NCBI GenBank assembly: GCA_020060845.1 | Contig: JAGUZK010000027.1 | Location: 1 to 42,239, forward strand | Length of the DNA: 42,239 bases | DNA from: Candidatus Woesebacteria bacterium | GTDB lineage: Bacteria > Patescibacteriota > Microgenomatia > UBA8517 | Reading direction: 5' to 3' | In this document: one piece after another, positions 651 through 1,433 of the stretch | How the letters are laid out: each line of letters starts with the position of its first letter | How positions within the stretch are numbered: position 1 is the stretch's first letter | Notes under the pieces: model-generated | Seen by the model: only the letters and a program-made list of their open reading frames with translations | What the model was told of the DNA's origin: nothing | Database searches by the model: none | Position numbers and translations under genes: made by a program

Positions 651-809
651 TTAGATTTCTTTCGTAATATCAATTCCATATTTTCGTTTATATTCGTTAG
701 CTGCTTTACGAAAATCATCTTCTTGACACTCTGGACACCAGACTGTCAATTCATGCCAGGTTTGTATAATATCTACCACCCCCCTGCCACCACAAATCCT
801 ACACTCCAC
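651..809 (-). CDS. Small zinc-ribbon-like protein, 52 aa, GTG start
   Basis: Manual translation: (V)ECRICGGRGVVDIIQTWHELTVWCPECQEDDFRKAANEYKRKYGIDITKEI*; two CxxC pairs; GAGGGG upstream of GTG. Confidence 0.5.
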   Translation of the reverse strand: MECRICGGRGVVDIIQTWHELTVWCPECQEDDFRKAANEYKRKYGIDITKEI

Positions 810-923
810 GCCAAACTATCCCCTCGCCCAAATTTGGCGCAGGGGACACTCCTCTTTTTAATCCTTTGGCGCTTCTTTCTCGCCTTTGCCCTTCTTGTAA
901 AATTCCCATACTTTATCCTCAAT

Positions 924-961: not shown

Positions 962-1240
962 TACATTAAAAAACCGCCCTCAGAAAACTATCTACACTCC
1001 CAAAAATCATCTTTTAGGGTTTTAAGATAGTCTTCCAAGGACGGTTTTGACCGTGGTGCCACCTTGTTTCGTCGCCTGCCAATTTCGGCAGGAAACCTCA
1101 TTACTAACAAGCTCCGCAGTTAAAAACTATGCGACACTCGTTCCTGTCTTTTTACGGTTTTGGCTCCGTCGCATACTTTTGCGCTCCTCCCCAGTCCCAA
1201 CCATACTGGATCAGCGGGTTTATTAGCTTATTAATAAGGT
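962..1240 (-). promoter_or_regulatory. T-box-type tRNA-sensing leader (antiterminator at ~1035-1070, stem III-like hairpin upstream, Stem I not confidently resolved)
   Basis: Reverse-strand RNA CAAGG-UGGCACC-ACGGU-CAAA-ACCGU-CCUUG: 5-bp helix, 7-nt bulge matching T-box consensus UGGNACC, 5-bp helix; preceded by CCUGCC...GGCAGG hairpin; the 3' half of the antiterminator is also the 5' half of a long terminator. Confidence 0.8.
968..1046 (-). terminator. Intrinsic terminator of the T-box leader
   Basis: AACCGUCCUUGGAAGACUAUCU pairs with AGAUAGUUUUCUGAGGGCGGUU (22 bp including G-U), followed by a U run. Confidence 0.85.
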
Positions 1241-1433
1241 ATTATAATAAATTAAATTCCAAAAAGCAAATTCGGTACAAATAAAAGAATTATAGCCTGC
1301 GACTTCTTGTTTTTTACAAATTCGCTAGACAATGTGGGTTTGTTTGACGAAATCCGAACCTTTTTTGAACAGAAACGATGGCGGGCTTCGCCCGGCTGAA
1401 TCGTTCGGCAAAATTCCTGAAAGTTTTATCTTG

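Follow-up and report, generated by a model that had tools for sequence, protein, structure and literature searches.

Introduction

Most tabulated T-boxes come from Firmicutes, and a few from Actinobacteria, Chloroflexi, Deinococcus-Thermus and Proteobacteria (PMC2494555). T-boxes that act on transcription are stated to depend, as a rule, on a long Stem I that carries the elbow-binding module (PMC7583486). The class III architecture was defined with Nocardia farcinica ileS as type (PMC10482949). No literature joining T-boxes to the candidate phyla radiation (CPR) was found in a search with little coverage of subscription journals. Here we analyzed a 42,239-nucleotide stretch of DNA from a Candidatus Woesebacteria bacterium (contig JAGUZK010000027.1; the window), in which a first-pass annotation, made from the letters alone, had proposed a T-box-type attenuator sensing tRNA-Trp upstream of trpS on the minus strand of a CPR-like genome. 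The host assignment agrees with the nearest TrpS sequences, which come from Candidatus Woesebacteria (84% identity, L035), Blackburnbacteria and Levybacteria (Microgenomates, Patescibacteria).

Judged from its sequence, the minus-strand leader at about 1234-968 is a T-box for tRNA-Trp with all its parts. It precedes a 52-residue open reading frame (ORF) and trpS, and the proposed span of 962-1240 fits it. The leader resembles class III N. farcinica ileS (PMC10482949, PMC7583486) in its short kink-turn (K-turn) Stem I without the distal interdigitated T-loop module, in an apical-loop specifier followed by a purine, and in its predicted Stem II S-turn and IIA/B pseudoknot. Unlike N. farcinica ileS, it appears specific for Trp and belongs to Patescibacteria rather than Actinobacteria; its apical loop has 9-11 nucleotides as opposed to 5-6 in class III; and whereas class III elements are mostly translational, it carries a terminator with U6 and has no start site close by. 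With the class I transcriptional T-box (Bacillus subtilis tyrS type; RF00230) it shares a UGGN-bulge antiterminator set against an overlapping terminator, a Stem II domain and Stem III, but the long Stem I is missing and the specifier lies outside an internal loop.

Architecture of the leader

The following features were assigned to the leader and its immediate upstream region:

1241 to 1246, minus strand: candidate -10 box TATAAT, picked out by eye; the transcript would start near 1234
1186 to 1218, minus strand: ultrashort Stem I, with a K-turn (CC/GG C-stem, GCU, tandem G.A), a CCAG/CUGG stem and the apical loop UAUGGUUGGGA
1197 to 1199, minus strand: specifier UGG (Trp) in the apical loop, assigned from the sequence and at the identical place in 33 aligned leaders
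1170 to 1183, minus strand: Stem II with an S-turn-like loop AAAAGUA; 4 of 4 pairs changed on both sides
1143 to 1169, minus strand: Stem IIA/B, an ACGG/CCGU helix (1169-1154) plus a pseudoknot of two base pairs to 1144-1143, assigned from covariation
1107 to 1141, minus strand: Stem III with a conserved internal loop, covarying in both alignments described below
1036 to 1066, minus strand: antiterminator with the T-box bulge UGGCACC at 1061-1055, assigned from the sequence and RF00230
968 to 1048, minus strand: intrinsic terminator overlapping the 3' half of the antiterminator, assigned from folding; U-run at 973-968

The RF00230 covariance model matched positions 1034-1223 end to end (model positions 1-219; 47.7 bits, E 2.9e-9), although under the curated cut-off. 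Two RF00230 matches were found in the genome itself, and the trpS leader scores higher than the other, which precedes thrS (C43:23416-23569). The consensus promoter scan of the window reported no promoter, the TATAAT at 1246-1241 included.

The first-pass annotation had suspected a divergent or reduced Stem I and could not place a specifier. Both points are now settled by an ultrashort Stem I of about 33 nucleotides, which is not the long form with distal T-loop module of class I. Four pairs (CCAG/CUGG) close the loop UAUGGU-UGG-GA. The base after the UGG at 1199-1197 is a purine, which is also the case in T-boxes whose specifier lies in the apical loop. The loop measures 11 nucleotides, or 9 if a U-A pair forms, compared with 8-10 in Trp relatives; several Ile, Asp and Asn relatives have a 6-nucleotide loop. 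Specifier and gene agree, since UGG precedes trpS here and both trpS and trpE in relatives.

The proposed antiterminator is present on the minus strand exactly as described, namely CAAGG (1066-1062), UGGCACC (1061-1055), ACGGU-CAAA-ACCGU and CCUUG (1040-1036). The competing hairpin and U-run were likewise borne out; the stem, proposed at 22 base pairs, has an outer part of 24 base pairs in addition to an inner stem. The terminator hairpin (1048-970) has a minimum free energy of -42 kcal/mol (z = -9.8; equalled in 0 of 200 shuffles) and is followed by U6. As it shares bases 1048-1036 with the antiterminator, the two structures are mutually exclusive. No terminator was found by the consensus terminator scan, whose limits are exceeded by this stem and loop. 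In a crude test, a U-run followed all nine Trp leaders checked.

The bulge also fits the tRNA. The tRNA-Trp gene of the genome (C49:8721-8793) encodes the discriminator G73, complementary to the bulge UGGC, and G73 tRNA-Trp is found in four other genomes with UGGC leaders. Together with the UGG specifier and the trp genes behind the relatives' elements, this upholds the tRNA-Trp specificity and discriminator G that had been proposed. One leader (L029) has the bulge UGGU and is directly followed by a tRNA-Trp gene with A73, a pairing that suggests compensation. Further tRNA genes lie directly behind T-box leaders in L008 (1883-1968, Tyr) and L022 (1815-1888, Phe), in addition to that in L029 (446-518, Trp); in such cases the switch may therefore control the tRNA it senses.

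Conservation and covariation in relatives

To follow the element through related genomes we used R1, a covariance model of the 5' domain derived from five Trp leaders, with the window and any antiterminator left out. R1 found the window's leader at 91.4 bits (E 1.3e-23, E-values of such models being rough) as its sole match in 42 kb, and matched in 87 of the 286 genomes of the class. The T-box core GGTGGNA, which is not part of R1, follows 29 of the 30 best R1 matches in the class. Behind these 30 matches lie trpE (10), trpS (7, the window included) and a TrpD-like family (3), 20 in total. The last is a recurring family of proteins with weak similarity to glycosyl-transferase-3, first met in L014 and also present in L242, L243 and L246; it is probably tied to tryptophan because it is located behind UGG T-boxes.

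Relatives show covariation in Stem I, Stem II, the IIA/B pseudoknot and Stem III. Among six Trp leaders, 98% of the cells are paired and 14 of 25 pairs are changed on both sides, a level reached by 0 of 500 shuffles, while pairing falls to 23-42% in slid registers. Among 33 leaders, in an alignment fitted to the structure of the model, 97.2% of cells are paired and 91 are double-changed, compared with 27 in shuffles. The C-stem of Stem I covaries, and the loop-closing helix, which is unpaired in the model, varies between leaders yet can pair in 33 of 33. At the pseudoknot pair, the window has C-G, four relatives have G-C and one has G-U. The T-box identity first proposed is supported by the RF00230 match, though this is below the cut-off, and by the antiterminator, the specifier and conservation in relatives. 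The outcome that the first-pass annotation had named as refuting it, neither a covariance-model match nor conservation, was not observed.

Proposed mechanism and alternative explanations

By comparison with the known family, we infer tRNA binding, the sensing of charging and the direction of the switch as follows. The anticodon CCA of tRNA-Trp would base-pair with the apical-loop UGG of Stem I. Because this Stem I lacks the distal elbow-binding module, the codon-anticodon duplex is expected to be clamped by the Stem II S-turn and the IIA/B pseudoknot. The GCCA end of uncharged tRNA-Trp would then pair with the UGGC bulge and stabilize the antiterminator, so that RNA polymerase would continue into trpS, while with charged tRNA-Trp the terminator would prevail. 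We are nearly certain that the leader, as a T-box riboswitch responsive to tRNA-Trp, controls trpS and the preceding small ORF by transcription attenuation.

Several observations weigh against this reading. The RF00230 score of 47.7 bits is below the Rfam curated gathering score of 93. The antiterminator folded alone gives no stable structure, which is expected without tRNA but lends no support. UGG is present in the apical loop of all 30 best R1 matches, but this is not independent evidence because R1 itself contains the UGG positions. The A73/UGGU case is a single leader present in two genomes (L029, L224); because the second genome has the same leader, a misbinned or transferred contig is possible, and the genome of this case (G032) has two further tRNA-Trp genes with G73.

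Action on translation through an antisequestrator, as described for most T-boxes with a short Stem I, is the best of the alternatives, although a very improbable one. It would be in keeping with two ileS and two thrS relatives that have no U-run, one of them (L002) from the genome itself, but here the hairpin of 24 base pairs with U6 overlaps the 3' half of the antiterminator, about 60 nucleotides separate the terminator from the first start codon, and the U-run is found in 9 of 9 Trp leaders. The two T-box-matching thrS leaders without a U-run, L002 (C43:23416-23569) and L033, are perhaps translational themselves.

We consider it slightly less probable still that the T-box has decayed, its structure having been inherited and its tRNA sensing lost. 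Such decay could account for an Rfam score under the cut-off and for an R1-detectable element in only 87 of 286 class genomes; however, each part of the element is intact (specifier, K-turn, S-turn, pseudoknot, bulge, discriminator match and terminator), and where positions vary they do so in pairs. Finally, two tRNA genes nearby (1434-1507 and 1664-1733) might point to an ordinary constitutive terminator or a tRNA-derived sequence resembling a T-box, but this is scarcely credible, being already contradicted by conservation: the leave-one-out E-value of 1.3e-23 and a conserved position before trp genes in many genera.

T-boxes in other Patescibacteria

With a threshold of E <= 1e-3 and strict filters, RF00230 matched in 24 of 57 near relatives, 153 of 286 genomes of the class and 97 of 288 genomes of the phylum; matches above the Rfam cut-off occurred in 17 of 286 and 9 of 288, respectively. 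Apical-loop T-boxes with the cognate codon in the loop were also found upstream of proS, ileS, aspS, argH, hisS, valS, serS, glyS and tyrS. At 25 of 39 loci, Trp loci included, the loop codon at a fixed position matches the downstream gene (permutations: mean 6.0, maximum 15 in 50,000). The contrast with the permutations is the safer figure, because examples had already been seen when part of the rule for the codon position was fixed. If the cognate codon may stand anywhere in the loop plus its two closing pairs, 34 of 39 loci agree (permutations: mean 15.6, maximum 27). Specifier calls were anchored on Stem I, and the wrong hairpin is still picked in a few loci. An R1 search of 151 Chloroflexi-phylum and 11 assorted genomes gave no matches, which says little, as there was no positive control outside the CPR. 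Taken together, the sequence evidence indicates that the leader is a genuine T-box for tRNA-Trp, belonging to a variant that has an apical-loop specifier and acts on transcription, and that it is one among many in Patescibacteria.

Two further observations concern individual loci. CGC (Arg) apical-loop T-boxes stand ahead of proteins that may serve arginine metabolism or uptake (L010, L012, L025, L030), and a tandem pair of T-boxes lies upstream of glyS in L011.

Between Stem III and the antiterminator, a second hairpin with a U-run is present in 24 of 29 R1-found Trp leaders and in 15 of 76 leaders of a wider set, far more often than in shuffles, as about 0.3 would be expected in each (loci L222-L251 and L004, L006, L007, L008, L012, L014, L021 and L022). 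An AAURAGG-like motif precedes it in 27 of the 29 Trp leaders and, by eye, it often lies inside an outer helix. RNAalifold gave no consensus structure for this region. The window has the following hairpin at this place:

1075 to 1092, minus strand: hairpin CCUGCC/GGCAGG, without a U-run, assigned from the sequence

Our favoured guess is that the nested hairpin is a pause site. We tentatively propose, at somewhat short of even chances, that Patescibacteria have their own large lineage of transcriptional apical-loop T-boxes for many amino acids, in which most Trp leaders would work in two stages, the nested hairpin and its U-run first pausing or partly stopping the polymerase and so buying time for the tRNA to bind a Stem I that has no elbow-binding module.

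Genes downstream

Both genes named in the first-pass annotation were confirmed on the same strand, together with a third ORF:

799 to 909, minus strand: 36-residue ORF (MGILQEGQ...WRGV), running into the start of the ORF that follows; not at this place in L043
651 to 809, minus strand: 52-residue cysteine-rich small protein, zinc-ribbon-like, with a homologue at the same position in L043
3 to 611, minus strand: trpS, tryptophan--tRNA ligase (TIGR00233), first 203 codons, running off the window end

The trpS product matches TIGR00233 with 207.6 bits, above the cut-off. For the 52-residue ORF, found in 2 of 144 relatives, Pfam gave weak, sub-threshold matches only (Lar, Zn_ribbon_8). By eye, a CCCC/GGGG-type hairpin within 651-909 could hide its ribosome site; this hairpin and the overlap with the 36-residue ORF suggest that the two may be translated in a coupled manner. 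The arrangement is similar to the B. subtilis rtpA (anti-TRAP) leader, where a tRNA-Trp T-box is followed by a cysteine-rich protein of about 50 residues (PMC11255114). We rejected this analogy as coincidence, given the sub-threshold Pfam matches, the occurrence in 2 of 144 relatives and the absence of a link to TRAP. In other relatives (L035 2659-2937; L038), the place just upstream of trpS is taken by a different small protein rich in Cys and His.

Significance

Miniature Stem I and transcription terminator form a combination that the literature calls unusual, and there are many such leaders in Patescibacteria. The present leader puts to the test the general need for a long Stem I that has been stated for transcriptional T-boxes (PMC7583486). 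A review of Patescibacteria calls for riboswitch-based expression tools (PMC11665869), for which these T-boxes, if our reading is correct, would offer native inducible elements. It would also mean that about a third of the sampled genomes in a huge bacterial radiation, whose regulation is poorly known, sense amino-acid starvation via tRNA.
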